Source: Asterias amurensis | Lineage: Eukaryota > Echinodermata > Asteroidea > Forcipulatida > Asteriidae | Direction: 5' to 3' | Assembly: GCF_032118995.1 (NCBI RefSeq) | Contig: NC_092662.1 | Location: 14,583,701-14,647,700, forward strand | DNA: 64,000 nt | Shown: piece after piece, positions 459-57,500 of the stretch | Numbering within the stretch: position 1 is the stretch's first letter | Layout: every line of letters begins with the position of its first letter | Notes under the pieces: model-generated | Told to the model about the DNA's origin: nothing | The model's input: the letters and a program-made list of their open reading frames with translations, nothing else | The model's database searches: none | Position numbers and translations under genes: made by a program

Positions 459-3400
459 CTGTATACTTGCGGCCAAGTATGACAGGGGCAGGAAGAGTTG
501 ATGTTTTCTTTAATTCGGGATCAAGGTTGACAGCAGCGAATCCAGCATCTTGGTATCCTCCCGTACTGTAGAACGCTACATCACGACCTATCTTTGGCCT
601 GATGTCTCTGATTGCTGCAACAGCAAATAAAAAGTAAATAACTGCTAGTAACTTAAAATTCTAATTTTATCTTTTTTTGTTATTTATGCAAAATAGATTT
701 AACAACCTCATTTTTCAATCAACGCTCCTTTTTTTAATTTTGGGTTTGAACAAAGAAAAATTTACTTGAGCAGAATTTGAATCAACTGCCACCGGATTAA
801 CTTGGATCCAAAATCATTTGACTGACAATGACTCGAGCAGGCAAGTTGAAACATTGAGACCAATATTTAGAACTCACTATGTGGAAGTAAGGTTAATAAT
901 GAGAAGTCCCGTTGATCCACTTAGCAAAAATGGTAATCCAAGCCAATTTCCTACCTTCCACCCTTGCAGGACAGTTCTTTTCAGAACTGAGATGTCTGAG
1001 AATTCTGAAAATCTACTTTGCAGTGCGTAGATTGAATTGCAAGAAAAACTCTCAAAAAAACATAATCTACACAGCAAATTTAATCAGCTTTCACCCCAAA
1101 CCAAACGGATACCTGACCACGCAATGCCTAAAAAACACATACAAAATAACGCATGCTTTGTTTCATCCCCTCAGGAGTTATAGTTGTGGTTTAACTTATT
1201 TTGGGTTTTACTCGTCTATTCATTCTTCTGACTTGAAACAATGTTGTTTAAAGGCAGTGGACACTATTGGTAATTGTCTAGTCTTCACTAGTCTTCACAG
1301 TTGGTGTATCTCAACATATGCATAAAATAACAAATCTGTGAAAATTTGAGCTCAATCGGTCATCGAACTTGCAAGATAATAATGAAAGAAAAATAACCCT
1401 TGCAACACGAAGTTGTGTGCGTTTAGAAGGTTGATTTCGAGACCTCAAGTTCTAAACTTGAGCTCTCAAAATCAAATTCGTGGAAAATTACTTTTTTTCT
1501 CGAAAACTATGGCACTTCAGAGGGAGCCGTTTCTCACAATGTTTTATACCATCCACCTCTCCCCATTACTCGTCATCAAGAAAGGTTTTATACCAATAAT
1601 TATTTTGAGTAATTACCAATAGTGTCCACTGCCTTTAAGTCTCTTACCGTCTGTAAGCTCAGCTCCATATATCACAGCCTTGGGTCCAGCAACATTGATA
1701 CAATGCTCTAAACTTTCCGCACGCAGATTGAAGTTAATCAACGCCCCGATAACGCCTATCTTAGACAAGCCCAGCCAGTAACAGGCAAACTCTGGCCGAC
1801 TCTCCATGAATATAGCGACCGTATCTCCCTTTTGTAGACCCTTCTCGAAGAAATAATTAGCGATGGCATTGGCGAAGTTGTTGACATCCTTGAAGGTCCA
1901 GCTCTGGTCTTCAAACCGAAAGGCAATTTTGTTCGGGTGTAGTTTAACGCGAGCTTCAAATACATCATGGACCAGTTCTCGGTTACGCTGACGTTTCATA
2001 AGAGTCAACTTAAGACGGACGAGTGTAATTAGTCCTCTGTATAATATAATCAAAACAGAACGGAGAAATTCAGATGACTGTTCAACAATATATATAAAAA
2101 TTACCCTTTTGTATTAGACCAAGAACATCGCCTTCAAAATCGCCTACTGGGCCTCTCCATATCTTTAAGAAGCAACACCAGGCTTGAAATTGTACTCAAG
2201 GTCTTTACTATTTTGTGCTCAAAAAGATAATTTGTTGATACAAGTTTCGCTAGACCATCCATCACATCCCGAGTCTTCTAATGGCGCCAGCCAGTTTCTG
2301 GATCTTCTTTTGTATAGGTGTTATTGAGAGTCTTCTTTTGGTACCCGCCTGACCAAAGATCGTATAGCGCCGCGAAGCGCCCAGTTACTGGATCTACTTT
2401 TGTATAGGTGTTATGTTATTGTGAACTAAAACGGTCCAATTCCAGGAATTTATTCTTGTGTTGTAAGAGAGGGTTATGTATCGAGAGGCTTTAGGCTTTC
2501 ACAATTGTAATTGTATTTCAGCTCAAAAACAGGAGGAAAAGTTCAGCCCCATCCCCTCCTCCACCCAAAAAATAATATTTATATTAATAATTATACTTTT
2601 TGACACCGAACATTGCACAATTTTGACAATAAACAATAGAGACTGTTGCATTGGTTGCAGATTTTGCACTTAAAGGCAGTGGACACTATTGGTAATTACT
2701 CAAAATAAATATTGGCATAAAACCTTTCTTGGTGACGAGTAATGGGGAGAGGTTGATGGTATAAAACATTGTGAGAAACGGCTCCCTCTGAAGTGCCATA
2801 CTTTTCGAGAAAGAAGTAACTTTCCACAAATTTGATTTCGAGACCTCAGATTTAGAACTTGAGGTCTCGAAATCAACCATCTAAACGCACACAACTTTGT
2901 GTGACAAGGGTTATTTTTCTTTCATTATTATCTCGCAACTTCGATGACCGATAGAGCTCAAATTTTCACAGGTTTGTTATTTTGGATAACTTTCCGTATG
3001 GCGCCACCACTTTTTCACCCTTTTTTACAAAAAGGGATATCTCATTGAGGTAAATTAGATACTATATTATTTCATATCGAATGAAAAAGTGGAGGCGCCA
3101 TATGGAAACTTTTCCGTTATTTTATGCATATGTTGAGATACACCAACCGTGAAGGCTAGTCTTAGACAATTACCAATAGTGTCCACTGCCTTTAACTAAT
3201 TAGACGACTGGTTCAACTCATGGAAAAGTGTCCGTATACTGCCACCAATTTCTCATTTGATACTTTTATTATATGAAACTAGAAATACTGAAATGAGAAT
3301 ATCAGTCCTTTCTGTAAAAATTTATGAAAAGTGGTTGCAGGATCTGAGATGAGTGTAGGATGATCCAGAGAGTTTTCCCAATTCAACTACAATTCAATTC

Positions 3401-17948: not shown

Positions 17949-20900
17949 TTAAGAGAGCCATGGTTCAATGCAACTATCGAATACAGTCTGATTGCGATGC
18001 CAGTTAGTATGCATAACACCGGATACGTTGTAGGTCTTCAGAGCGTTCCGTTTGTCCAGAGTTCGAAGCCCGAATGAATCATATTTGTATATCTGAAAAC
18101 ATAAAAACAGAATCAAGTAAATTTACAAAATAGACATAGCAGGATCTTTAGTTTTTTAAATTGATTTGAAATACTCAATCACATAATTAAAACCAGGGCC
18201 CAATTTCATAGACCTGCTTAGCAGAAAGCGGTGCTTAAAATGTTTTTGCTGAGCAAAAGTAAGCAGGGTACCAGTCACAGGTTGTACATTGGACATGCTA
18301 TGTGGAATGGTAACCTTATTCTGGTAAGCATGGTCTTGTTGTGCTAAGCTAGCTTTTGTGCCGAAGTAGCGCTACATGAAATTGTGCCCTGGAGTAAACA
18401 CTGAAAAATACAGACAACAGTTTGTGGATGTTGTCACTTAACAAAATAGTCTTAAATTATTACAGCTTTTTTATAACAAATGAAATGATGCAAGACCTCA
18501 TAACAGTATATTTTGCAGGATGTTTGACAAGATTGTGAACTTTTCTTCAAGGAACAAAAGGATTGTGTTCAGTGGATTTATTACTACAAGATGCTTCACT
18601 CTCGGCAGACACACAATGCCTGAAGGCCACTTCAAGGTGTTGCCACCTACTCCTAGGGCTGAAACAGGGTTACCCCCTTTACAGTCCATACGGATGTAGG
18701 CTTGGGTATCATCAGTCCAAAGCCTGGCCGGTGGAGCAGAAAGCACTGCCTCCCCAATTTATGTAGCAAGTGTCACAACCGGGATCCAAAGCCACACCCT
18801 GCTGATCAAATACCAGAGCTTGAATCCGGTGCTCTTAACCGCTTGGCCATGACATGCCGTGAAAGTGTGAAATAAAATTTGTTCTCAATTTATAACATAC
18901 CTCTTGGTCCCTCATTTCCACAATGTTCTCATTGTTGTCATAGAATCCAAAATGGCTGCAAACAAGAAAAGAGGAATCAAATAAAGACACTGGACACTAT
19001 CAGTAATTGTCAAAGACCAGTCTTCTCACTTGATGTAGATCAACATATGCATAAAATAACAAACCTGTGAAAATTTGAGCTCCATTGGTCGTCAGAGTTG
19101 CTAGATAAGTATGAAAGAAAAAAGCACCCTTGTCACACGAAGTTGAGTGCTTTTAGAAGCTTGATTTCAAGACCTCAAATTCTAAACTTGAGGTCATCGA
19201 AATCAAAATCGTGGAAAATTACTTCTTTCTCGAAAACGATGTCACTTCAGAGGGAGCCGTTTCTCACAATGTTTTATACTATCAACCTATCCCCATTACT
19301 CTTCACCAAGTGAGGTTTTATGATGATAATTATTTTGAGTAATTACCATAGTGTCCACTGCCTTTAAAGAGTGCTTTTTGTTCATCCCCTAGACATCAAC
19401 AGTTGATGTTTTTATCAAACGGGTCGTTTCCCCAGTATGGGTTTGTGACATATTCTATTTTTCAAAAGGTCATAACTTTTGAACCAAACATCACACAAGT
19501 GTGTAAGATATGTCAAAATGAAGCTTGTTGTATGCTCTTTTCAGCTGTGTATAAAACCCATTAAGTCAATTGCCCCCTTGTGACTCGTTTTTTGCAGAGG
19601 CCATCACATAATAATTCTCACCTTGACTGCCAGGGGGTGATGACTCCGTCATTCGGCCCACCAATCATAACCATTTGCTTCAAACGCAGAAAATTAGCCT
19701 TCCACTCTGTTAATATTCAGACAAGGAAACTATTTGAATTTTTTTTTTACCATAAACAACCAAATAAATCAAACAAATCCACAAGATTTCAAAATCCTGA
19801 AATTAATCTAACTGTATTAATTTTAACATTCACTTTTTTCATAATGAAACTATTTTGAGCAAGATTTTGGATGAACAAGAGCATTCTGTGGCACAGTTCT
19901 AGTTGTCAGCGTGGACTCTTGGAAAAGCAAACTAAATCGCAGTACTAGCCAAGAACCCAATAGGGAGAGTTTCAGTTTTCAGATGTGAGAGGAAAAAAAC
20001 CAGAGAATTATTCCAGGAAGAACCCACACAGCCAGTCAAGGACTGAAAACCCTATCCATGTAGTGCCCCGATGGGATTCGAACCGGGGTCCTAGAGGAGG
20101 AAGGCTAGGAAAGAAACCACTACGCAAACCAGCCCTGGGCCCAATTTCATGGCTCTGCTTACCGCCGAATTCTGCGCTTATGATCACGTTCCCCGCATAC
20201 TTGCAAGCGCCGAATTTCTGCGCTAGCCTTGTAAGCGTAGAATGCCTAGTAACGTGGAGTACGCACGCACAGATGCCAAAATTAGCCGCTAACCCGTGAA
20301 ATAGGCTTGCCGTAAGCACAGAATTCCCTGCTTCTGTAAGCGCTGATTCTGTGCTTACGGTTAGCAGAGCCATGAAATTTGGCCCTGATGTTGAAGGACA
20401 ATGTATGTTTGTATTGTACTATTGTAGGCGCCATGGACAATCTATCGGTGGAAATGTGCGAAATACAATTGTTGCTATTATAATTATTGATATAATACCT
20501 TGGCTGTTGGTGCTCAATGTCTCATTGTTAAGGACTGGAAGATAGTCATTGCCTTTCTGGTACAAAGATTGATGATGAGGATCTGAAAGGGGAGGGGGGG
20601 GGGAAGAAAAGAAAACTTTGTATAAAATTACTGATTTGGTAGTAATCACTTACAATATGAGGGTGTCGCATAAGGATAGGTGATTATACAAACTAATAAA
20701 ATTCATATAAATATCTTCTCTTTGGTCAAATATACGCAATGCTTTATTATAACAACTGAACTGTATGGCTATACTAAGACTATAAGTAAATGGAATAACT
20801 AAATGATTGGCATGATTGTCTGTGGCGTGACGTGGCCGAGTGGTTAAGAGTACCGGATTCAAGCTCTGGTCGTGACACTTGCACCGTAAAATTAAGGAGG

Positions 20901-23900
20901 TAGTGCTTTCTGCTCTACAGGCCAGGCTTCGGATTGATGATACCCAAGCCTACATACGTATGGACTAAGCTTGGGCGATATCACGATATTATCGCGATAC
21001 AAACTTTGAAACGATTTCGATATCGGATCGATTTGGTTTTAATCGAAATATCGATATATCGCGATATATCGCGATAATCGATTAAATATCGCAATATCGG
21101 GATGTATTTTCTAGCAGAGACATCTTGCACCCCATAGGTTTGGAGTAAAACCAGAAGAATAGGTCATTAGAACACCTCTCTTATGCTGTGACTGTCTCTT
21201 CTACAACTTTCACTGGGAGTTTGAAGACTGATGATGTGAAATTTAATTAATCGCGATTATATCGAATATCGCGATATATTGTCGGCGATATATCGTGAAT
21301 AAAATAATTCGATATCGCCCAAGCTTAGTATGGACTGTAAAAGGGGTAACCCTGTTTCAGCCCCAGGAGTACGTGGCAACGGCCTCTGGAATAAAATAAT
21401 TGTAGCCCACACCTTGAAGTGGCCTCCTGGTCTTGTGTGTCTGGCAACTTGCATAAAAAAAAAAAATAGTCCAACTCAAACTGACAAAGAAATATTATTG
21501 TGTTTTTCCTAAATAAAAAAACCCAAAGAGCTTGAAATAAATCGAGAGGAAAAAACCGATAAGCTACAAAAGGAAAAAGGCTGCATGTACAATTGTAATA
21601 GTTTTGTAAAACACATACCATTCCAATAGTTACATATGGAAACATGTTGACCAAGAGCATGGTAACAGAATCTGTAAGTAAAAGAAAAGAAAAAAATATC
21701 CATACAGTCTGTTCGGAAGTTTGTCAATTTGTCTTTTTCAAACCACTCAATTTGTTTTTTTTCCAGCAGTGGCATTACCAGATTAATTTAATGGGGAGGG
21801 CAAATGGGGCAAAGTAAAATGTAGAAGAAAAGCTTTGATAATTTACTTCTTTTGGAGTACTTCAAAGTTTGTTATTGTTTTATTGTAATCAGTTCATTCA
21901 GATAAAAAAAATGCAGGTCTAAAGTTTCATTCCATTTTGTTTATTCTGGTTGTGAAGCCAAGGACTCTCAGAAAATTGAACTTAACCACTGTATTATAGC
22001 CGAAAACCTGATGGCAAGAAGACAAGGAAATAAGTTTCAGTTTTAGATGTTCGGGAAAACCCCAAATAACTGTACTAGCCAAGAACCAAATGGAGAGAAG
22101 ACAACAAAAAAAGTTTCAGTTTTAGATGTGGGTGGAAAACCCTAAATCATTGTACTAGCCAAGAACCCAAATGGAGAGATCACAAGGAAGGAAGTTTCAG
22201 TTTTAGATGATGGGGATAACCCCAAATAACTGTACTAGCCAAGAACCCAATGGAGAGAAGACAAGGAAGGAAGGAAGTTTCACTTTCAGATGAGGGAGCA
22301 ATTACCCAGGGACTTATTCAAGGGAAACCCACACAGTCTGGGAGGGACTGGAAACCCAATCCACCTAGTGCTTGGGCTGGATTCGAACCAGGGTGTGGGG
22401 TGTCGTGGCTGAGCGGACAAGAGTACCAAACTCAAGCTCTTGTGTTTCAGTTCAGCATAGTGTGGGTTTGAGTCAGGGTTGTGACATTTGTGTCCCTGAG
22501 CAAGACACTTAACTATAATTGCTTCTCTCCACCCAGGGGTAAATGGAGACCTGTGAGGGCAGAGACGGTTCTTGTGATTGATTTAGCCGAGTAGCGCATT
22601 TGTTGCTCAAGGCTGTATACTCCCAAGGGAGCTGAGATGGTTTAAGGAGTGAATTTGAAGCGCTTTGAGACACCGGTTCGGCAGTTAAAAAGCGGTATAG
22701 AAACTCAAATATTATTAATATTAGAATCCTAGAGATGGAAGGCATGGAAAGATACCACTATGCCAAGATGACAAAAGGTTTATCAAAAAGGGGGAAGGCC
22801 ACTGAATGCTCCTCCCTTTCAGAAAATCAGAATGCACTCACGGGCCACCAAGACTGAAACTTTGGTTATGTGACCTATTTATTACACGAGGATGTAATTG
22901 GAGAGTTAAACTTACTTATAAACATCTGCTTTCAGTTTTGGCAGAAACGGGATGTATGACGTATCTGAGGAAATAAAGTAGAGATAAAACGATTGATTAA
23001 TTTACCATGTCAATAAATTGGTGAAACTAAAAGGGACATAACATCATTCAATACTTTATTTGTTGACACTATTCCAGGGCCCAATTTCATAGAGCCGGAT
23101 TTGAACTGCCTGCTTGTGTTTTTTTTCCACAGAACTCCGGAAAGTACTGAGCATAAAGTGCTAACGCACAGTAGAAACCAAAACTAATATTCTTTATCTT
23201 AATGCAACTTTAACATCTAGCACTGCTTTACCCGCTGCTTAAATATAATATTTGAACTGCCTCTAGCTATCTCTGTGGTCTAGTTGGTAAGAAACTGCTC
23301 TAGAATTGGGGTTTGAATCCCACCCGAGTAGCATGCCTGTGATTTCTTTTTTACAAAACTCGGGAAAGCATACACTGCTAACACACATTGGTGTAAAGGA
23401 AAAAAACAAAATTAGATTGGGTGGTTCTGAAAACTGTTGCTTTCAACTCGACGTTTCGATCACTAAGCTCTGATCGTCTTCTGATCCAGCTTTCTCCAGA
23501 AGACGATCAGAGCATACTGATCGAAGCGTCGAGTTGAAACCAACAAATCTTTTCAGAACCACCCCAACTCATTTTAGACATTTTAGTCATTAAATGGTGT
23601 TACCACAAACCTTTCCAAATTGTATTTCCACCCTGCAAAGTTTCAAATCCTACTTAAATCCATTGGACACTTTCGGTAAACATGATTGTCAAAAAGCCCA
23701 CACTTCGTGTTTCAAAACTGATATATAAAATAACAAAACTGTGAAAATTTAGGCTCAATCGGTTATTGGAGTCGGGAGAAAATAACGGGGAAAACCCACC
23801 CTTGTTTCCGCACGTGTCATGACATGTGTTTAAAATAACTCTGTAATTCTCGACAACGAAAATTGATAATTGATTTAATGTTTTCTCGAAAAGTAAAGCA

Positions 23901-26900
23901 TTTCATGGAATAATATTTCAAGAGAAGTCTTTCACCATTACCTTCTGTAAACCCTGTAAGTTATTTGTAAATCTGTGAACTTTTTTTTTTTTTTTTCTGT
24001 GCCGAAAGTGTATAATGGCTGTAAAAACCAAAATTAACAGACTGGGTAGTCTTACCTCCATACTGGCCCATCTGTGGTGACGACAGAGCAATGAAGGTGT
24101 GCACATTATGATCGGACATTGTCTCCAGAATTCCGCGACAGATGATTCCACCTATAGACAAAAAATTAAAAATAACATAATAAAAACTACATTCATTACA
24201 GACGATGTGACCTATGTTTACATTCAAACCACCCTCTGTTGACACAACACTGTACACGTCATGTTTGGCCGAGCAAATAGACGCGTAGTCATGGTAAGAT
24301 TGCGTATACTTTCTAGCTGGCTGCCAAAACACAAAGGTTTTACCTGGCGGTATGCGTGCGAATCATGTTATGGTTTTCGAGTGACGTCAGAGGTCACATC
24401 GTCTATGAGGAAACTTTTACTACCAAATGACAATGCTAAACAAATCATAAGGTCAGGAAGGTGCCTGTTACCTGATTCCGAGGGCCCAGTTTCATAAAGC
24501 TGACAAAAAAATACTGCTTAGCAAATTTCTATGCTTAGCAAAGAATGGTGGAATGGAATTTTGGCTGGGAATCAATTTCTGTTAAGCAATATTTTACTAT
24601 GCTTTGCGAGTTTTTGTGCTTACAGGCTTTACAAAATCGGGCCCAGCTTAAAGTTCTATGCTTAGCAAAAATGGGTCGGGCACCAGTCACAACAGTTTAC
24701 CTTTGTTGAACCATGTTGAACAAGGTAAACTTAATGTAATTTTGGCTTGTAACCTGTTTCTGTTAAGCAATACTCTTCTTTGTTTAGCAATTTCTTTGTG
24801 CTTACAGGCTTTATGAAATCGAGCTAAGCTTACCTTGTGAGTAGCAGATGAGTATAACGCCATCTTGAGCCTGTTGCATGATGGGACGCATAGCAGCGGC
24901 AAACTTGGGTACTTGTTTCCATAATGGTTCCACACTTTGTAAATTTTCAAATAAAGGAATCGATGTAACGCTGGTGCCAGGATGTGCCTATAAAGTAAAA
25001 ACAAAAAACATGTTTTTGTAACGATTTTTTTAATGAAGTATAAATACCAAACCTTATACAACAGTCTCAAGTAGATTGAACTTTATTTGAATTGATGAAA
25101 GCACCTGGGGATGAAAAAATAAGTTAGTTCACACAAGAAAACCACGAAATGCTGTCATTTATAGCTTTTGAGAAAGACTCTGCAAGGGTCGAAACGTCAG
25201 ATTATTAACTCTTTTTTTGCAATACCATACAGTGTAGGTCTGTTTGGTTGGTAAGCAGTTTGCAACAGATAATTAATTTTTCTCACAATAAATTCACCAA
25301 CAACAATTATTTTCTCAAAACAACAGTCCAAGATATTCTTTCACATCCCAAGACCAAACGAGACTTATCATACATACAATAAGGAACAGTACCTGCAAAG
25401 CACTAAATTATTATTTCATCTTACCAGCGATATCATCTCTTCTAGGTGTCGCATTAAAAACCACCTCATTATCCAGATGTAGGCATGCCGTTTTCATACA
25501 GCATAGTGCCAAAATAATCTTGCAGAGCAGGGAAATCATGCTGCAAACTTTCAAAGCTCGACTAAAATAATGTAGTACAACTTCACAGCCCTGAGTTCTG
25601 AAACCAAAATGACATCCGACCCAACATCCTAATAGGCAAACACCAAGAGCTTTGTTTATGGTTTCATTTACAGAACCTGAGAACTAGAGTAGGCCTATGA
25701 GGAATGAGGAAGCTTGCATATTCTTTTTAGAGGGAAACAGACAAATCTGTGAAAAAAAAAAACTTATTATTTCATCTTACCAGCAATATCATCTCTTCTA
25801 GGTGTCGCATTTTACTGGCTCGACTAAAAATTCCATGGACAATGATGACAGGTCTAAAAACCACCTCATTATCCAGATGTAGGCATGCCGTTTTCATACA
25901 GCATAGTGCCAAAATAATCTTGCAGAGCAGGGAAATCATGCTGCAAACTTTCAAAGCTCGACTAAAATAATGTAGTACAACTTCACAGCCCTGAGTTCTG
26001 AAACCAAAATGACATCCGACCCAACATCCTAATAGGCAAACACCAAGAGCTTTGTTTATGGTTTCATTTAACCTGAGAACTAGAGTAGGCCTATGAGGAA
26101 TGAGGAAGCTTGCATATTTTTTTTAGAGGGAAACAGACAAATCTGTGAAAAAAAAAAAAACCTCAGTTGTGATTCAATTCCTTCAATTCCGCTGACGTCA
26201 TGTCTGGGAGTTTGCTTTGTTATACCTCCACGCTGCAACAAAGCGGCTTTACAAATTGAAGCTCAAGCAGGTCTTTAAATATTACTACAAGACACATGTA
26301 TACAAAAATTCAACAAAATATAATCCAATGTTAGCAAAGAATAAATAAAGTTCTTACCAACAGTACCATGTTCTCAAGCTCTTCCTGATAGCTTGCTTTA
26401 CCAAACAATCCATGAACCAAAATAACAGGTTTGTACACCGTTTGTACTGCTTCTAAATTTACATTTTGGAGACAGCACATCACCAGAATAATCCTGCAGA
26501 TTATTTGCAGAGCAGGAGCACAGACCTTAAAAACCATTTTTGAAAAATTATTACAAAAAAAAAAACAGGAAGCTAAATCGCAGTACAATTTTTACAGCAC
26601 AACCACCACGATCAAATAATGTGAGTGACTGTGAGCATGGAGAAAGTGGGTGTGACTTTTTTGAAAGAATAGCGGACCCTTTTAGCTAACGAGTTCGGTA
26701 ACATAACATGTTGTTATTGTGTGAATAGTGCCAACACGAGGAAGTCTTGCACTGCAGTAACACAACAGGAACTTTAGGAATAAATCAATGGTGAAATAAA
26801 CTCAAATAAATATTTTGTGTTTTTCCTTGTGTGAGTCATATATAGTCATACGATTTAATGCACGATACAAAAACAACAAAAACTGCACTTAGTACATAAT

Positions 26901-27610
26901 CATTACAAACAGTACAATCATATTTGACACTACTCCCTAGAACTATGAGGTTCGTTCGGCCATGTTCGTCTCATAGTTCTAGTATAGTAGGAGTAATTTG
27001 ACACTACACTATCTATGTAACCATGGAGGTCTACCTACCCAAAACGGGTCAACTCGTACCCAAGTCAACTCGTACCCAAGTTAGCCCACATTGTTGCCAT
27101 TAAAAGCTGAACAAGGTGGGCTAGTACCCAAGTCAACTCGTACCCAAAATATTTACCTCCATGGTGTGACTGTGTAGTGTGTAATGTAAAAATTGGGATT
27201 CCAAAAATTGTAAGAGATATTTTTAATTAAACAAACAAACTTTACAAGTTTCTTTTATAATCCTAGTCCTACTTCTAGAAATTATAAGGCTAAAAGTAGT
27301 ATAATCCATGCATAATGCTGACTAAAATGCGACAACAACGAGTGATTACCTGTGTAATAAACTGCCTTAAACCAGCCAGCGAATTGTTAACAGCAAAGAC
27401 ACCGTGTACTAGAATGACCGGACGGTACGCGACATTCTCGTGGGGTGATTTGCTCTCAATGCCCGGCCTCGTTGAATGGTGGCTCCCGCTCGCTAAAAAC
27501 TGCCACTCGCCGACCACAGCAACAAACAACGATACCAAAATGACGGTAAAATATTGCCATTTCTGAATTATCTCAGTCTGTAGTAAAAAGTATGCAGTAT
27601 CGGCTGCCAT
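17949..27610 (-). CDS. PPT2: PPT2-like lysosomal palmitoyl-protein (acyl) thioesterase, complete, nine exons
   Basis: Exons are 27610-27350, 24987-24834, 24151-24056, 22964-22916, 21671-21619, 20582-20499, 19706-19622, 18955-18901 and 18092-17949. Every junction keeps phase and the total is 326 codons plus stop, against about 302 residues in human PPT2. Exon 1 encodes a hydrophobic signal anchor or peptide and the first strand [11 protein letters not shown]. The nucleophile Ser137 is in ICYSQGG across the exon 2/3 junction, Asp252 is in [13 protein letters not shown], and His307 is in GVMHTNWH. These give the alpha/beta-hydrolase triad of the PPT family. [18 protein letters not shown] and the C-terminal CIEPWLS are PPT2 hallmarks. 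The family removes acyl groups from thioesters in lysosomes. Two further first exons (see separate entries) can replace exon 1. Introns are crowded with foldback elements and SINEs. Confidence 0.96.
18196..18392. mobile_element. Foldback element, GGGCCCAATTTCATAGA type
   Basis: Ends GGGCCCAATTTCATAGACC and the inverted TACATGAAATTGTGCCCTGG with paired inner blocks (CTTAGCA/TGCTAAG). Intron 8 of PPT2. The family is the commonest in this window. Confidence 0.65.
18510..18862 (-). repeat. tRNA-derived SINE, type S
   Basis: Minus-strand head with CATGGCCAAGCGGTTAAGAG and the following CCGGATTCAAGCTC, then the body and the CACCTTGAAGTGGCC tail. It ends 39 nt from PPT2 exon 8, in the intron downstream of it. 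Confidence 0.7.
18985..19363. mobile_element. Foldback MITE, family 1, in PPT2 intron 7
   Basis: Ends AGACACTGGACACTATCAGT and inverted CTATGGTAATT-side partner; TTAA at 19364-19367, the other flank changed to ATAA. It begins 30 nt upstream (in transcript sense) of the exon 8 acceptor, where the branch point would be expected. Confidence 0.82.
19930..20130 (-). repeat. tRNA-derived SINE, type R
   Basis: On the minus strand a head containing GGTTCGAATCCCATCGGGG is followed by a body with GTCCTTGACTGGCTGTGTGG and a tail with TTGGGTTCTTGGCTAGT. The same element, interrupted, is at 22007-22770. Confidence 0.6.
20137..20394. mobile_element. Foldback element, CCAATTTCATGGCTCTGC type
   Basis: Ends GGGCCCAATTTCATGGCTC and inverted GAGCCATGAAATTTGGCCC. 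Several internal paired blocks of the type TTCTGCGCTTA/TAAGCGCAGAA. Intron 6 of PPT2. Confidence 0.75.
20823..21450 (+). repeat. tRNA-derived SINE, type S, split by a hAT-like insertion
   Basis: The head (GTGGCCGAGTGGTTAAGAG) and body run to 20965 and resume at 21328 with the family sequence through GGGGTAACCCTGTTTCAGCC to CACCTTGAAGTGGCC. The gap is exactly the hAT-like element at 20966-21327. Confidence 0.78.
20966..21327. mobile_element. hAT-like non-autonomous element, 362 bp, 8-bp target duplication
   Basis: The ends TAAGCTTGGGCGATATC are inverted, and GTATGGAC is duplicated on both sides (20958-20965, 21328-21335). The interior is rich in GATATCG/CGATATATCGCG strings. Terminal TGGGCGATAT and 8-bp duplications are characteristic of animal hAT elements. 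No transposase. Confidence 0.88.
22007..22770 (-). repeat. SINE type R with tandemly expanded tail, interrupted by SINE type S
   Basis: Four imperfect 68-78-bp copies of TGTACTAGCCAAGAACCCAA...GTTTCAGTTTTAGATG lie at 22007-22306, then the type R head with ATTCGAACCAGGGT. A type S SINE (22394-22727) interrupts the head, which resumes as GAATCCTAGAGATGGAAGGC. Confidence 0.7.
22394..22727 (+). repeat. tRNA-derived SINE, type S head with GCGCTTTGAGACACC tail
   Basis: Head GTGTCGTGGCTGAGCGGAC, body with GACATTTGTGTCCCTGAG, and tail GAAGCGCTTTGAGACACCGG...AAAAAGCGGTATAGAAAC ending in an ATT-rich run. The same tail type stands alone at 52735-52845. Confidence 0.72.
23258..23405 (+). repeat. tRNA-derived SINE, type Q
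   Basis: CTCTGTGGTCTAGTTGGTAA head with GGGGTTTGAATCCCACCC, then body TGCCTGTGATTTCTTTTTTA and AACTCGGGAAAGCAT. Confidence 0.7.
23421..23566. repeat. Foldback carrying two hammerhead-like motifs head to head
   Basis: The two arms are inverted copies of GGTTCTGAAAA and of the GACGATCAGAGC...GATCGAAACGTCGAG block. Each arm carries the motif AGAAGA-stem-GAAACGTC or close to it (see findings). Confidence 0.65.
23658..24020. mobile_element. TTAA-type foldback MITE, family 3
   Basis: Starts after TTAA (23654-23657) with ATCCATTGGACACTTTCGGT and ends with the inverted CCGAAAGTGTATAATGGCT. Close relative of 37369-37738. It ends 36 nt from PPT2 exon 3. Confidence 0.72.
24484..24826. repeat. Two adjacent relics of the GGGCCCAATTTCATAAAGC foldback family
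   Basis: 24484-24645 runs from GGGCCCAGTTTCATAAAGCTG to TTTACAAAATCGGGCCC; 24646-24826 is a second, decayed unit with CTTAGCAAAAATGGGTCGGG and GCTTTATGAAATCGAGC. Intron 2 of PPT2, up to the exon 2 donor. Confidence 0.6.
25408..25760 (-). pseudogene. Broken tandem copy of PPT2 alternative first exon C
   Basis: This stretch is almost identical to 25764-26158, which holds alternative exon C, so the duplication is recent. It lacks 44 bp in the middle of the exon, corresponding to 25812-25855 of the intact copy. That removes the RPVIIVHG strand and shifts the frame relative to the phase-0 donor, so the exon copy cannot give a working thioesterase N-terminus. An assembly artefact from two haplotypes is possible. 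Confidence 0.75.
25764..26158. repeat. Intact copy of the tandem duplication carrying PPT2 exon C
   Basis: Starts TTATTATTTCATCTTACCAG like 25408 and ends with the same A-run. Differs from the left copy mainly by the 44 bp that the left copy has lost. Confidence 0.75.
25781..25939 (-). CDS. PPT2: Alternative first coding exon (C) of the PPT2-like gene
   Basis: The first in-frame ATG (25939) gives [14 protein letters not shown], then [18 protein letters not shown], ending MILL at a GTAAG donor in phase 0. It is clearly homologous to exon B (both have a KVC/LLCKII-type leader and the RPVI-VHG-F core) and can join the same downstream exon at 24987. Leader length is short (53 codons). It lies in the intact copy of a tandem duplication; the neighbouring copy at 25408-25760 is broken. 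Confidence 0.78.
26358..26537 (-). CDS. PPT2: Alternative first coding exon (B) of the PPT2-like gene
   Basis: From ATG 26537 the frame reads [14 protein letters not shown], a Cys-rich hydrophobic signal-peptide-like stretch, then [20 protein letters not shown], and stops at a GTAAG donor after codon 60 in phase 0. This is the same phase as exon 1 (27350-27610), so it can splice directly to the AHPGTSVTS exon at 24987. It carries the same catalytic-domain first strand and HG turn as exon 1 with a different leader. No second set of downstream exons exists nearby, so it is best read as an alternative first exon with its own promoter. An abandoned duplicate exon is the alternative. Confidence 0.82.
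27021..27164. repeat. Foldback with AACTCGTACCCAAGTC direct repeats
   Basis: Outer ends CCATGGAGGT/ACCTCCATGG are inverted, but the inner units GTCAACTCGTACCCAAGT lie in direct orientation on both sides of a GCCCACATTGTTGCC loop with its partner AAGGTGGGC. Upstream intron of PPT2, between exon 1 and exon B. Confidence 0.55.
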
Positions 27611-40320: not shown

Positions 40321-43290
40321 TTAAATTTCTTTCTTTGGGGTTAATGAATGCTTCTCAGAAGTACTAGGACGATCATCTTTATAATCATCCTGATCATCTT
40401 TCTTACACTCTTTCTGGTTTTCATCTTCACATTCCTCGTCATCATAATCTTGGTCATCGTCTTGAGGGTCCTGGTAGTCTTCATAATCCTGCTCACTATC
40501 TTCATCCTCCTCATCCTGGATGTCTGAAGAAACATCTACGTCTATTGGCTGTTGGGAGTACTCGTCTGGTCCTGAGTGGGAAAACATTGATGTAATAATA
40601 ATAATTTGGGAGGCTATAATCATCCTTACTCGCAGCCAAGAGCTGAATTGCGAAGGACGTGTTCGAGAAACAAGCATGCAAGGGCGCCTGCCAGCCACAT
40701 CAACCCATTATGACCACGGAGCACAGCCAAGATCGAAAGTGTTGATTTTTCCCGAGGGAAGAAAACGGGGCGGTCTGGAAAACCCTCGTGGCACAGCAGA
40801 GAACCAACGTTTAACTTTAACTCAACTCACATAATTATGTGATTTATGAAGAAAAAAAACAATTTCATAGAGCTGCCGTCGATTTCACCAAACTCTTCCG
40901 AACTTAGGATTAATCTTATAGGACTTAGGACGGGTTCAGTTCTGTATCAAAAGACGTAGGACGCATTGAACCCATCCCAAGTTAGGACGGGTTCATACTC
41001 TTCCTAACTCGAGATAGGATTAATCCTATAGCGTTTCGTGAAATCGGCTGCTGCTTTTTTAACGGTAAGCAAATTTTCTGTACGAACATACCCAAAGTAA
41101 CAAGGCATTGCTATAGTGTCCACCATGTCTCGAAAAGGCTATAATAATAGAAAGGTTCATTAATATGCAACTTATTATCCACCTGTGACGTCACGCTATT
41201 TGTTCCAGCACTCAACTATTTTGCATGGATGGCGCGATATCGTTTCAAAACCATTGATCTTTTGGAGATAAAAGTTTAAATCATTAGATCATTGATCTCT
41301 TTTATGATACCAATAGTTAAAACATAGGCCATTGCGATGGCGCTAAATCACATGGAACGAAATAATATTATGGAACAATAGCATGGGTCACAGGTGCATG
41401 TTAGAGTACAGTACACTCGGTAGCCCAAGTTGAGCCATGGGGCTAAACTGAACATGGAAACAGAGTACAGTCAGACCAGGGGAAAACGTTATTTATTTAT
41501 TTAAAATCCTGGCTAAAAGATTTAAAGAGTGTATAAACACAAACAAGCAAAATTTAGTACTTAGAATAATGGAGAGGTGACAATAGGTTGGAGTGTGAGT
41601 AAGTAATGTTCCAGTTAATTTGTATAATGGACCAAACGAAAGGACCTTTTAAACATACCTGTTTTTTGACGTTTACTTGGTTGCTCACTGCTGGTCCAAA
41701 ATCTTGGTCTTTCGACTGCTGCAAGGAAGGTATTGTTACGGTCTCCAGTTACATTGGTGTGATTGTGAACAGAGCTATCTTGATGATGATGATGTGTAAC
41801 AGTGGATGGTCCTACTGGAACTGGGACAGTAATGATATGCGGACTAGGCTGGGTCACATATTGGGGCTGGGGCACCCTGCCTTTGGTTTGCAGCGTCTTT
41901 AGAACGGATTGTTGGTGTTTTGGGGCCAGCTGTTTGCCATGGCTGGTTGTTGGTTGGCGTTTTGGGGCCAGCTGTTTGCCATGGCTGGTTGTTGGTTGGC
42001 GTTTTGGGGCCAGCTGTTTGCCGTGGCTGGTTATTGGTTGGCGTTTTGGGGCCAGCTGTTTGCGATGGCTGGTTGTTGGTTGGCGTTTTGGGGCCAGCTG
42101 TTTTCCGTGGCTGGTTGTTGGTTGGCTTTTTGGGGCCAGCTGTTTTCCATGACTGGTTGTTGGTTGGCGTTTTGGGGCCAGCTGTTTGCCATGGCTGGTT
42201 GTTGGTTGGCGTTTTGGGGCCAGCTGTTTGCCGTGGCTGGTTGTTGGTTGACGTTTTGGGGCCAGCTGTTTGCCATGGCTGGTTGTTGGTTGGCGTTTTG
42301 GGGCCAGCTGTTTGCCATGGCTGGTTGTTGGTTGGCGTTTTGGGGCCAGCTGTTTGCCGTGGCTGGTTGTTGGTTGGCTTTTTGGGGCCAGCTGTTTGCC
42401 ATGGCTGGTTGTTGGTTGGCGTTTTGGGGCCAGCTGTTTACCATGGCTGGTTGTTAGTTGGCGTTTTGGGGCCAGCTGTTTGCCGTGGCTGGTTGTTGGT
42501 TGGCATTTTGGGGCCAGCTGTTGACCATGACTGGTTGTTGGTTGGCGTTTTGGGGCCAGCTGTTTGCCGTGGCTGGTTGTTGGTTGGCGTTTTGGGGCCA
42601 GCTGTTTACCACGGCTGGTTGTTAGTTGGCGTTTTGGGGCCAGCTGTTTGCCGTGGCTGGTTGTTGGTTGGCATTTTGGGGCCAGCTGTTGACCATGACT
42701 GGTTGTTGGTTGGCGTTTTGGGGCCAGCTGTTTGCCGTGGCTGGTTGTTGGTTGGCGTTTTGGGGCCAGGCCTGGCCGGGCTGCAGTGCAGCGAATGGCT
42801 GAACGTTGTGCTTGTCTGGGTTGAGGTCGTCTTTGATGGTTAGCAGATCGTGCCCGGTTAGCATTCTTTGGAGCTGTATTTGAAATGCAAATGCACTTGA
42901 AATTGCTTTTGTAATTTTATGTTCACATTTCATACAAAATTAAATACACAATTTACAAGTATAAAAAAGAAGTGAAAATGGGCTTTAATCAGGAATATCG
43001 TGAGTAACTATCCATGAAAAAAAAGAGGACAAGAGAAAACCGGGCAAGAACAAAAGAGGACAAGATAATATTCCTATACTTTTGTACACAGAAAGTTAAG
43101 GGAAAAAAAGAGGAAAATCAACCCCCCCCCAAAAAAAAAAAGAAGAAGAAAGAAAATCAGCTGAAAAGAGGAAGTCTCACATGCCTGTTAAAGTATACAA
43201 TACAAATGTCATCGAAGTTGATTGATGTAATGGATAAAATCATGTTCAGACTATGAATATATTATACATCTGATGGCTACACGTACCCAT
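40321..43290 (-). CDS. Unrecognised 489-aa protein: about 20 basic 14-residue repeats, His cluster, acidic tail
   Basis: Exons are 43290-43287 (ATGG, inside a mostly untranslated exon 43336-43287), 42873-41659 and 40571-40321; phases agree and give 489 codons plus stop. The correct frame of the 42-bp repeat is fixed by the flanking unique sequence, since the other two minus-strand frames hit stops just past it. It begins MAPKNANRARSANHQRRP, then about 20 copies of LAPKRQPTTSHGKQ (residues about 37-322), a linker with PSPHIITVPVPVGP, a HHHHQDSSVHNHTN patch, SKRQKTG (a possible nuclear signal), and an Asp/Glu-rich tail (about 425-470) ending KKEI. The composition suggests a disordered nuclear or nucleic-acid-binding protein; function is unknown. 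A candidate AATAAA (minus strand, 40275-40280) lies 41 nt after the stop. Confidence 0.75.
40858..41046. repeat. Foldback relic with CTTAGGATTAATC arms
   Basis: ATTTCATAGAGCTGCC at the left and CGTTTCGTGAAATCG at the right enclose repeated AACTTAGGA/TAGGACGGGTTCA blocks. Related in its ends to the CCAATTTCATAGAGC family. In the intron of the repeat-protein gene. Confidence 0.5.
41915..42775 (-). repeat. Coding minisatellite, 42-bp unit, about 20 copies
   Basis: The unit in coding sense is CTGGCCCCAAAACGCCAACC followed by AACAACCAGCCATGGCAAACAG (42 bp); it encodes LAPKRQPTTSHGKQ. Changes fall mostly at four sites (R/S/C, P/L, H/R, K/Q). There is no length change that breaks the frame, since 42 is a multiple of three. 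Confidence 0.95.
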
Positions 43291-52846: not shown

Positions 52847-54549
52847 GCAAGAGTATAAACTATAAGAAGTTGTTGACATTATTTGTAATTTGTAATTTTT
52901 TGTTTTTGTCTTAAATTATTTTTAAGTTTTTAGTGGAAAAGAGAGCAAAATGTAATTTTAATCAATCATACAGTAAAATATTCAAATAAAATTAATTGGT
53001 TATCAACATTGTTGTTTAAATTACTATTTTAAGTTCAAAGTCGTATACAAATTTGACACTTAACATGTCTTATTAATCCCACACATGACATGGTACTCAA
53101 TTTAATTGGGTCTCAGAATTCATAACTCAGAATTCCTATCTTTCTGAATGTTTGTATATACTCAGCGCCTTGAGTACATTGTTTGGTAGATATGTGCGCT
53201 ATGACTTCAATATTATGTTATTATACAATAATAAATTTATTTACATGTATGATATCCCAAGGTTTTGGCATCAAGTCTTTTGTACTTGGCAGATAGAACA
53301 ACTAAAACAATTTATACTTCCACCGCGGAAAACCCACAGAAACAAACAAATGTCCATGTAAGGGAACTTGTCTGATTGAAGGAAATCTTTGTTTTAGAGC
53401 AACCAGACGTTCAAATTTCCTGTTGTACTGTGGACCCAGTTCAGGAAGTTGAAGAAAATAAATCCTATTCCTAGGCGCTAATTTCTGCGCTTAAGATTGA
53501 ATCACATGTATCTGTTCACTTGTTGACGTTAGCGTTTGTGGTCAAATATTTGCAGCCTTAGTAATGGATGTACAGGCTGTTGTGGATAATTTGACCTTTG
53601 CATAGCCTTTCGGATGCCTGTTGTTTACCACAGTTAATAACATGGGAGGCAATGACATCTACTTCTTGTGTTAAAATTGTTGTTCTTCTTTATTCCTGGC
53701 AACCAGTAGGCCCTATTTAACAAATTTGCCATTATCAAGCTTCTAAATGACCCCCTGGCTCCCACAGCAATTGCCATGGTGCCCTGAGCTTTTGCTGTGG
53801 TGCCCTTTCCAAGGTTCCAAATACAAAGTTCAATTTCCCCATTAGACAGAAGTGCCCTTTCCTTACCAGGGGAAAATTGTTGCACCAATTCAAGAGCAAA
53901 ATTCAAGGCCTGCGTATCATGAAATTTTTTTTAAAAGCACACTAGATACCCTGAGAAAATTTTCATGAAAATTGAATATACCATTGGGAGACCCAAGCAT
54001 TGGTTTTGAAGGGGGCACAGCTATTTTTCTGTGATTAGAGGCACTTCTCTATGAGGAGAATTAGTTTGTACTGGAACTTTGCAAAGGGCACCACGGCAAA
54101 AGGACAGGGCACCAAGTGCTGTGGATTTTTGAGGCCTGGTGACCAATGAAGAAAGGTAATGTGAACAGATTTTAATTTTTCTTTGTAAGTGATTTTTGTT
54201 GTAAATCTTTTATTTTATTTTAAGGGAGTTGTTGGTGGGGAGGTAGGCATCGGAAGTCTTGCCTCTCACCTCAGCACCCGTTATGGCACCGACCTTGACC
54301 TCTCCGACGCTGGCTTCCAACAAAACCTGGAGTACATCAAAGAGCAGATCAAGAAGGACATACGCAAAGAACTTAAACTCAAAGAGGGAGCGGAAAACAT
54401 GCGAAAGGTTACGACGGACAAGAAGAGTATTGCGAACATTAACAATATGGTGAAGCAGGCGAATATAAAACTGCACGAATTACGCCAAGAATTGAATGAA
54501 CTTAACGCTCACATTGTGGTAAATACTGATGAAATAACTGCTGCTTCAG
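52421..54549 (+). CDS. PKN: Protein kinase N (PKN1/2-type), first two coding exons (partial)
   Basis: Exon 52421-52450 encodes MATESPSFYQ and ends at a GTTTG donor; exon 54225-54549 continues GVVGGEVGIGSLASH in phase and ends at GTAAG. The second exon holds a complete first HR1 (Rho-binding) coiled-coil: DAGFQQNLEYIKEQIKKDI, ELKLKEGAENMRKVTTDKKS, KLHELRQELNELNAHIVV. This order and the KEGAENMRKVTTD core are diagnostic of PKN, a Rho/Rac-activated AGC kinase of the PKC-related group. The C2-like and kinase domains would lie past the right edge. I see no further exon in 54550-64000, so the second intron exceeds 9.4 kb. The PKN1/2/3 paralogue cannot be assigned from one domain. Confidence 0.92.
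52735..52845 (+). repeat. SINE 3' tail with (TTA)n microsatellite
   Basis: GAAGCGCTTTGGGACACCCTC and GTGAAAAGCGCTATATAAA are followed by about 19 TTA units. This tail type is widespread in marine animal SINEs; here it lacks a head. PKN intron 1. Confidence 0.8.
53748..54142. repeat. Two copies of the GTGCCCTTT dispersed repeat, head to head
   Basis: 53748-53912 reads GCAATTGCCATGGTGCCC...AAATTCAAGGCCTG; 54000-54142 carries its inverted relative ending GGGCACCAAGTGCTGTGG and GAGGCCTGGTG. PKN intron 1, ending 83 nt before exon 2. Confidence 0.6.
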
Positions 54550-57500
54550 GTAAGTTAATTGATTGATTTTCGTGATTGTTGTTGGAACGTGAATCCTTGA
54601 GTAGAGGTTCACAAAATTGTTCAAAAGCAGGCCCGGATTTTTGTTTTTTGTATCGGCCGAAAATGTGCTTGTATCAACATGCAATTTGCGCGTATCTGGT
54701 TGCAATTGGCTAGTATCGGCCCGATATGCTAGCTTGTTCGAGGGGCGAACCCTGATTGAATAGCCAAGGGCCCATTTCCATAGAGCTGTTTACAGCTGAT
54801 TTTGTGCTTACTACATGTATTTGAGCTTCCATTTCCTAGTGCTGCTTTTAAAAGCAAAATTTTCAGCTACAGTTAGCATGAAAATGTGCTACCAATGACT
54901 AGCGCTGAGAAATTGGCCCCAGGCTGTCATGATGTGCTTAATACAATCACCTTCAGTTGAAAGTTTTGACAAATTGTCAGCTCAATGCTGCAATGTAATA
55001 ATCACGTCAAGAGCGATAAGGTGTTTGTAAATGAATGACTTCCTGTATAGTGAGTCACTGACTGTCTTGTGAGTAAGGAGGGGCTTCCTGGTAAAGGAAT
55101 GGCTAGACGATCCATTTGTGTGCGATGGCATGAAAGCTTACTTCAACTTGCCATGACAACTGCAAACATGGCAGCTACATGACACAGTAACCTCATTCAC
55201 GGTGATGATCGTTCTTGCAGCGCCATTTGGTTTCTGCATGCGCTGCTCGCTCATGACCACTGGAATTGGTTAATTACAATGTGTACTTGGGTTTTGCACA
55301 TTTTGATGAGGCGGATCCACACTACATGTACGAGCATGCTAAAGTATGGTAAATGTATGCTGCAAAAAATGCACCCAGTTATCAGACATGCTGAAAAACA
55401 CTGTGCAAAAGTTAAGTGTACATGTAGCCGGCCATTTCCTCTTTTTTTTGCAGTTAATTACAGAGTTGCATGTCTGAGTTTTAGAGCAACTGGTCTCCTT
55501 TAGTTCTTCTTTGATTTTGATTAAAAACATGATTCATTTGAATCGCGTCAAAATACTTCCATTTTGGCACAGGCATCCTGCAACCCCATAACATACAAAC
55601 GTAATAATGTAGGAAAATCTATGAATTCATGTCACGTTCACAGGGTCTGATTTGCAATGGGTAAGCTTACGTGTGACCCTCCACTGTTGTGCGCACACTT
55701 GCCATACTACGTGTTACATATTAGATTATTGACTGCAAGACAGGTAAATTACATAGTGCCTGAATAAGCTTGCTTGCATAGATTAAATACTTTTTAACAT
55801 CTTTCTACACCTCATATAAATATGGCCGCCAGATTTTTTACTTGAAGTAAGCCATTCACATCTCAGGGCCTGTGCCATGTAAATCGTGCAACCTGAAAAA
55901 ATGCACTCAGCCCTGAAGCATTTCCTAGCTTTGTAAACATTGATGGAAAGTAGAAAATCAGAAAATGTGTTTACAAATACATATCCTACAGTGTACTACA
56001 TCATAATCGGCTGGATTAATCCTCACACACAGCAGAATGCTAAAAATAGCTTTTGTAGTCACGGGTCACACAAAGTTTGTGTGTAAATTCTGTAAAGAGT
56101 CATGACATTTTACTGACACAGGGTTGTACAATACAATGTACATGTACAGTACATGTAGTATACATTGTACAAAATGATAGCGCTCCAAACATTTCCACAC
56201 ACCATTGATCCAGACAACACAGACCATTATCTCTGCATGCAGATGTGTACAGTGAACCATTTCCCTTGTATAGCAGTGCAAAATGTCTCAGTTACTCAAA
56301 AATCATCATTCCTATTCAATATTTGCATTCACTCTGCACAAAACTTTCCAGTCAAAATATTTTGCGATGCAAAATTGCTGGATGAAGTTGTTCCCTGAGT
56401 GATGTACACTGTACATTTTAAAAACTGAGACATAAACAGGGTATGGTGAATGGTGATCTGATGTTCTACATATGTACTTCATGTGTTATAAAGACAATTT
56501 AGATGATAGACAATGTAACAAACACATTAAAACCTTATTGATATCTAAGTAAAGTTGTGTGCAAGTACAGGAATATTTTACCGTGAACTTGACAGTAAAA
56601 TGAAGTGATCAACGTTTTCCTTGTATGTATTTCGTCTTGTTTCACAAATGTACTGTACTGTGTTATACTTCACACAGACAACCTTTGAAACAATACCATT
56701 TCAATTTAATGGCGGAACTGACAATACGTACATGTCTGTATACAACACCACTACAAACTATTTTGTTTGATATCCGTGAGCAGCTGGTTAACCAGAGATA
56801 CCTCTCTCATCTTTCTTTTCATCAGCGACAGTGATCAAGTTCTCATTTGCTTCGACCAAAATTACCAGATGTCTCTGGATTTGGGTTACACTATTGACCC
56901 ATGCAGCTCAAATTTCCCGTTGAGTTATCTTAATACTAAGGCTGATACTTATTATTCATTTGGGTTTCATCATTGCACGAACCTAAAAGTAAAGCTGTAG
57001 GCTCATATCCTGGCACTAAATTTTGCGTGCAGCCGTAGGGTAAATCAACTCTGTGAGCACGCTTAAGTTGGTTCTTAGAGGGTTGATATTAACCGTAAGA
57101 AACCAATTAGTTGACGCTAATGCAGTGAAATTATGCTTAAAGGCAAACAACAATAAAAAATATTGTATTTTGCCCATTTTTGTCTTGAACACATTTGTAA
57201 TGAAACTCTGGTCATGAGCTACAATGTATGCATACCTGTGTAATACACACAGAGTGTGAAGCTTTTGTGTGCAAGGATAATTCTATTACATTTTTACCTC
57301 CTGTTTATTTATTGTTGTTTACTACATCACAACCGTAGCACAGAACCTCACTTAATAGTAAACACAAGCTTTAAATCATGCACAGTGCTTAGTTTTCTTT
57401 TGACTCTCAACCTAAATTTATTGCCGTGAACTTTGCAGTCAAATAACAGCGCATGCACTGCGTAATATGCAATGGCGATTTGTGCCACTCTCTTTGTGTT

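Follow-up and report, generated by a model that had tools for sequence, protein, structure and literature searches.

Enzyme genes with duplicated first coding exons are known in vertebrates, among them GCNT2, UGT1 and PGM1. In GCNT2, each first exon is described as having its own promoter and being spliced separately, and the number of first exons varies by lineage (PMC1885805). Separate promoters are also stated for UGT1 (PMC3325998). The organization of Ugt1, Gcnt2 and Ugt2a has been called vertebrate-specific (PMC1885805).

Here we describe a locus in the starfish Asterias amurensis that we read, with reasonable though not high confidence, as one PPT2 gene carrying a small variable-first-exon cluster, in which first exons are born and die. 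All window positions refer to the stretch of DNA that was analysed, 64,000 nucleotides of contig NC_092662.1 (positions 14,583,701 to 14,647,700, forward strand). The original prediction for this stretch was that three alternative first exons give a PPT2-like thioesterase three different leaders.

Gene layout and the three first exons

Reading the minus strand from 29000 to 17000 and assembling the gene exon by exon gave a complete nine-exon PPT2 gene at 27610-17949; every junction in it has an AG acceptor and a GT donor. Eight constant exons (24987-17949) encode a 239-residue body. Exon E1 opens the gene, and two further first exons, B and C, follow it in the same orientation, ahead of exon 2. 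In the list below, a slash marks the exon end.

27350..27610, minus strand: first coding exon E1, 87 codons, 261 nt, long leader, phase-0 donor CAG/GTAATC
26358..26537, minus strand: first coding exon B, 60 codons, 180 nt, short leader, phase-0 donor TTG/GTAAGA
25781..25939, minus strand: first coding exon C, 53 codons, 159 nt, short leader, phase-0 donor CTG/GTAAGA
24834..24987, minus strand: constant exon 2 (AHPGTSVTS...ICYSQ), acceptor TTTATAG
24056..24151, minus strand: constant exon 3
22916..22964, minus strand: constant exon 4
21619..21671, minus strand: constant exon 5
20499..20582, minus strand: constant exon 6
19622..19706, minus strand: constant exon 7
18901..18955, minus strand: constant exon 8
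17949..18092, minus strand: constant exon 9 (MHTNWH...CIEPWLS, stop)

The three predicted first exons were recovered at these positions: each is open, begins with ATG and ends in a phase-0 donor (GTAATC, GTAAGA and GTAAGA, respectively) that can be joined in frame to 24987. Joining E1, B or C to the constant body there gives proteins of 326, 299 or 292 amino acids, in frame and with no stop.

Each first exon has a length that is a multiple of three and encodes a hydrophobic leader followed by a [KR]PVI-VHG-F strand, and in each the donor comes exactly 15 codons after HG-F. When all six frames of the window were scanned for [KR]PV[ILV][LIVM][VI]HG[LIVMF][FY], three places were found, which are E1, B and C only. 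We ruled out a chance motif, since all three matches carry a GT at the same distance of 15 codons past the motif. The leaders form two classes: that of E1 is long, and those of B and C are short and related to each other (63, 36 and 29 residues ahead of PVI in E1, B and C). Comparison of the E1 leader with the B or C leader at the protein level gave no meaningful match. The best 15-residue mean hydropathy is 2.49 for the E1 leader, 2.45 for B and 2.47 for C. Of the three, only E1 has a sequon for N-glycosylation: NNS, at residue 75, right after HGVF.

The joined proteins all cover positions 1-254 of the Pfam profile Palm_thioest (PF02089), with scores of 237.8 (E1), 232.7 (B) and 239.1 bits (C), so that C fills out the profile no less fully than E1. 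On its own, the constant part covers positions 28-254 (218.9 bits). Since the constant part starts at profile position 28, each first exon provides the same missing piece, positions 1-27, made up of the first strand, the HG-F loop and, going by the known alpha/beta-hydrolase fold, the first helix. The predicted exchange of the leader along with the first strand and the HG-F loop is borne out in this respect. The best structure match to all three joined proteins is human PPT2, 1pja (339.4, 331.4 and 339.1 bits for E1, B and C; 309.5 bits for the constant part alone), while PPT1 chains score 50-57 bits. Both the full-length profile and the closest solved structure thus place the proteins in the PPT2 family, nearer than PPT1. 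The Ser in CYSQG, the Asp in GGPxDG and the His near HTxWH, the catalytic residues, align to human PPT2, and all three lie in constant exons. By homology, the gene product is a PPT2, predicted to be a lysosomal thioesterase. It had further been proposed that the HG oxyanion region could change between isoforms. The loop residue does vary (HG-V/L/I-F), but the difference is mild and the catalytic Ser, Asp and His stay in constant exons. Pfam matches of the bare first exons, one each, fell under the curated cut-offs and were treated as noise.

Other open frames were noticed in the window. On the minus strand, 41615-42916 holds a 433-residue frame in which a unit of about 14 residues (QLAPKRQPTTSHGK type) is repeated in tandem; at E 0.001 it matches nothing in Pfam, and long frames occur on the opposite strand of this interval too. 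A frame at 1613-2113 (minus strand) matches AMP-binding enzymes (PF00501, 85.9 bits), and one at 54189-54566 (plus strand) has an HR1 repeat (PF02185, 52 bits).

Homology, constraint and a broken fourth copy

B and C are clearly duplicates of an exon. They are identical in 22 of 52 columns by blastp (E 3e-15), and B as a query matches C within the window (E 1.7e-13). Their DNA aligns inside the exon with z 10.8, a score reached by 0 of 200 shuffles; the 160 nt of flank on each side gave no alignment (z 0.1 upstream, z -0.4 downstream). A protein comparison of the three sequences links the E1 core to C with E about 1e-6 and to B with E about 2e-5. The DNA of E1 does not align to B or C above shuffles (z 1.4 and 0.6), and its relationship to them is seen at the protein level, in the core. 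Two marks of a variable-first-exon cluster are present: tandem homologous first coding exons (B and C, by DNA and protein) and a single downstream set of constant exons in compatible phase. The predicted duplication of a first coding exon is real, and all three exons fit one constant body.

The comparison of B with C covered 51 aligned codons; the first nine codons of B were left out, as were the first codon of C and a gapped one. In this alignment 22 residues are the same in both exons, with differences at 66 of 153 bases. NG86 gave dN 0.53 and dS 1.27 for the 51 codons, dN 0.40 and dS 1.52 for the 27-codon core, and dN 0.72 and dS 1.06 for the leader. LWL85 gave dN 0.45 and dS 0.99. YN00 gave dN 0.63 and dS 0.83, a ratio of 0.76, for the 51 codons, and no value for the core. 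Between E1 and B or C synonymous sites are saturated and give no estimate. We also ran 20,000 neutral simulations in which the number of base differences equalled that observed. The 22 of 51 identities were reached in 0.35% of runs, neither copy had a stop in 8.4%, and both held in 0.04%, a figure that spans the whole time since duplication and is compatible with a recent death of B or C. For the core the same joint figure was 0.095%. For the leader, which by itself does not deviate from neutrality (P 0.29 for identity in the simulation), it was 8.7%. Concentration of the B/C base differences at third positions was not significant (Fisher test, p 0.17 over the 51 codons and p 0.09 over the core). 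Constraint on B against C is shown by the simulation, the other tests being weaker, and is best supported for the core.

The original list of first exons holds for E1, B and C and misses a fourth, broken copy, C'.

25405..25762, minus strand: C', a broken copy that repeats the C unit (25763-26158) head to tail, donor CTG/GTAAGA kept, exon end 25425

C' and the C unit are identical at 349 of 352 aligned bases, about 1% divergence. The leader and donor are retained in C'. A 44-nt deletion takes out RPVIIVHG and shifts the frame, so C' cannot make the enzyme. C' arose recently by duplication of C and lacks the core; it illustrates what becomes of an unconstrained copy after only about 1% divergence. 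First exons are born and die at this locus, a further mark of such clusters, as so young a copy with a frame-breaking deletion shows. Identity this high falls in the allelic range of marine invertebrates, and C and C' could in principle be two haplotypes joined by the assembly into a false tandem duplication. We consider this improbable: the two units adjoin exactly, and the assembly was built from HiFi reads that are reported to average 12,511 bases and could span the pair (PMC10625585). The same paper reports 13.47 Gb of RNA-seq. Even if the duplication were false, E1, B and C would be unaffected.

Genome copies and competing explanations

We searched the starfish's own genome (491.5 Mb, 23 contigs) with a loose first look, after which only candidates were scored. 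The joined B protein had 12 matches up to E 10, of which 10 are in the PPT2 gene; one of the remaining two is weak and on contig C14 (E 1.5), and the other is a short fragment of exon 3 at a distance of about 270 kb. The E1 query matched itself once, the C query had three matches (itself, C' and B) and the B segment matched itself and C; the B query missed E1 and the E1 query missed B and C, so short, diverged first-exon copies elsewhere could escape these counts. By these searches, a single PPT2 body was found. At the PPT1 locus on contig C20, scanning 12 kb for the motif P-x-x-x-HG gave one match, PLVMWHG preceded by a leader.

A possible second PPT2 about 270 kb away on contig C15 was rejected. 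In the 40 kb read there, just an exon-3 fragment was present, with 19 residues aligned locally. This short piece (G000:C15:14879130-14879198) includes the donor, and its flanks resemble by eye repeated sequence within PPT2 intron 3; a repeat may have picked it up from the gene. We also rejected a dispersed repeat as the agent that spread B or C: among the 41 listed matches to 25400-26540, the lone dispersed piece holds no exon. This piece, 81 bp in the interval between B and C (window 26184-26264), has 40 other matches among those listed, 93-98% identical (40 of 648 candidates scored). Apart from PPT2, two full-length COX1 matches were noticed 16.4 kb apart on a chromosome contig (C5:658874-660214 and 675294-676634, G000), either a tandem mitochondrial insertion or a misjoin. 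COX1 is found on C23 as well, read with TGA as a sense codon.

Signals around the first exons were compared. The CpG observed/expected ratio in the 500 nt upstream is 0.52 for E1, 0.71 for B and 0.36 for C, and inside the exons it is 1.11, 0.15 and 0.46 (window 0.66); CpG is high in the E1 exon only, not upstream of E1. CpG and TATA counts gave no clear promoter signal above E1, B or C; one TATA-like string lies above B, and near B and C there was no TATA that convinced. With the Kozak consensus as the yardstick for start contexts, that of E1 (ACCATGG) is the closest of the three. The B donor matches 6 of 9 consensus positions, which 15% of GT sites in the window equal or exceed; the donor of constant exon 6 likewise scores 6.

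These differences bear on whether E1 alone is used, with B and C as untranscribed relics that were once used and are not yet broken like C'. Dead copies do occur at the locus, as C' proves, and E1 has both the highest exon CpG and the start nearest to Kozak; the YN00 ratio and the non-significant codon-position test allow weak constraint. We nevertheless think this explanation unlikely. B and C, with a dS between them that ranges from 0.8 to 1.3 by method, have kept frame, start and donor, neutral simulation seldom yields such a pair, and C completes the Pfam profile like E1. That at least one of B and C is used as a first exon is, from the sequence, quite likely.

B and C could also be first exons of separate, partly duplicated PPT2 genes: tandem gene duplication is common, and B and C have their own starts. 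The original prediction named this as an outcome that would count against it. We reject it as extremely improbable because the own-genome searches gave one constant body: all matches to the constant exons are at the PPT2 locus except the exon-3 fragment and the weak C14 match, and B and C lie inside the gene, in its orientation. That B or C serves as an internal exon, spliced behind E1, is hardly more probable. We examined 26 AG sites that lie inside B and C or up to 200 nt above them; seven are stop-free through exon 2 and four of these are in frame: one for B (12 nt into the exon) and three for C (51 nt above, and 21 and 75 nt into the exon). At the other 22 the frame is broken or shifted. 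Both exons come with their own start, and a product of E1 and a second such exon would presumably hold two first strands.

The simplest reading is one PPT2 gene with a choice of first exons. In it, E1, B and C arose when the first coding exon was duplicated, each with a start, a secretory-type leader, the first strand, the HG-F loop and the first helix. Each transcript would take one first exon and splice it in phase 0 to the sole exon 2 acceptor, and every first exon would most likely be started by its own upstream promoter. The outcome would be the same thioesterase body with a different N-terminus, the leader, strand, loop and helix being exchanged together. Transcription of B and C is presumed in this scheme, as would be any difference in sorting or substrate. 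A more specific version is possible, and we hold it as doubtful: the long E1 leader may remain as an anchor in the membrane, E1 would place the sequon beside the active site, B and C with their short leaders lack the sequon, and one body would serve different compartments or acyl substrates. First-exon choice would then swap an address label together with the oxyanion wall, in an old cluster outside vertebrates, which we put forward just as tentatively.

Comparison with known first-exon clusters

The original prediction remarked that exon duplication at the start of this enzyme is not familiar from vertebrates. For PPT2 this stands: no duplicated first coding exon turned up in the titles and abstract openings among the literature matches listed, and nothing was found in the literature on PPT2 in starfish. 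The novelty is narrower in that vertebrate enzymes with duplicated first exons are known, in GCNT2, UGT1 and PGM1. The finding also bears on PPT2 itself: its sorting and its role are not as well understood as in the case of PPT1.

Like starfish PPT2, the gene of the I-branching enzyme, GCNT2, is described with three very similar tandem first exons, an N-terminal hydrophobic segment and shared constant exons (PMC1885805). Its promoters and separate splicing are stated; those of the starfish cluster are presumed. The variable exons of GCNT2 encode a larger portion of the enzyme than the PPT2 first exons do. Those of UGT1 carry the whole substrate-binding domain; those of starfish PPT2 supply the first strand, loop and helix only. 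The likeness to UGT1 is that variable first exons are joined to a shared constant part; duplicates and pseudogenes are reported among the UGT1 first exons (PMC1885805). Human PGM1 also resembles the starfish gene in its paralogous alternative first exons (about 51% identical proteins) and shared later exons, but it is described with two such exons and two promoters (PMC7101342). The starfish gene has three intact exons and one broken exon, and its leaders are swapped. PGM1 is a metabolic enzyme of the cytosol and has no secretory leader.

The starfish case would show that the first-exon-cluster route evolves outside vertebrates, and it sets intact copies next to a freshly broken one. The locus would be a small and tractable case of the birth, retention and loss of first exons. 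Set beside GCNT2, UGT1 and PGM1, it is apparently a known kind of gene in a new place.
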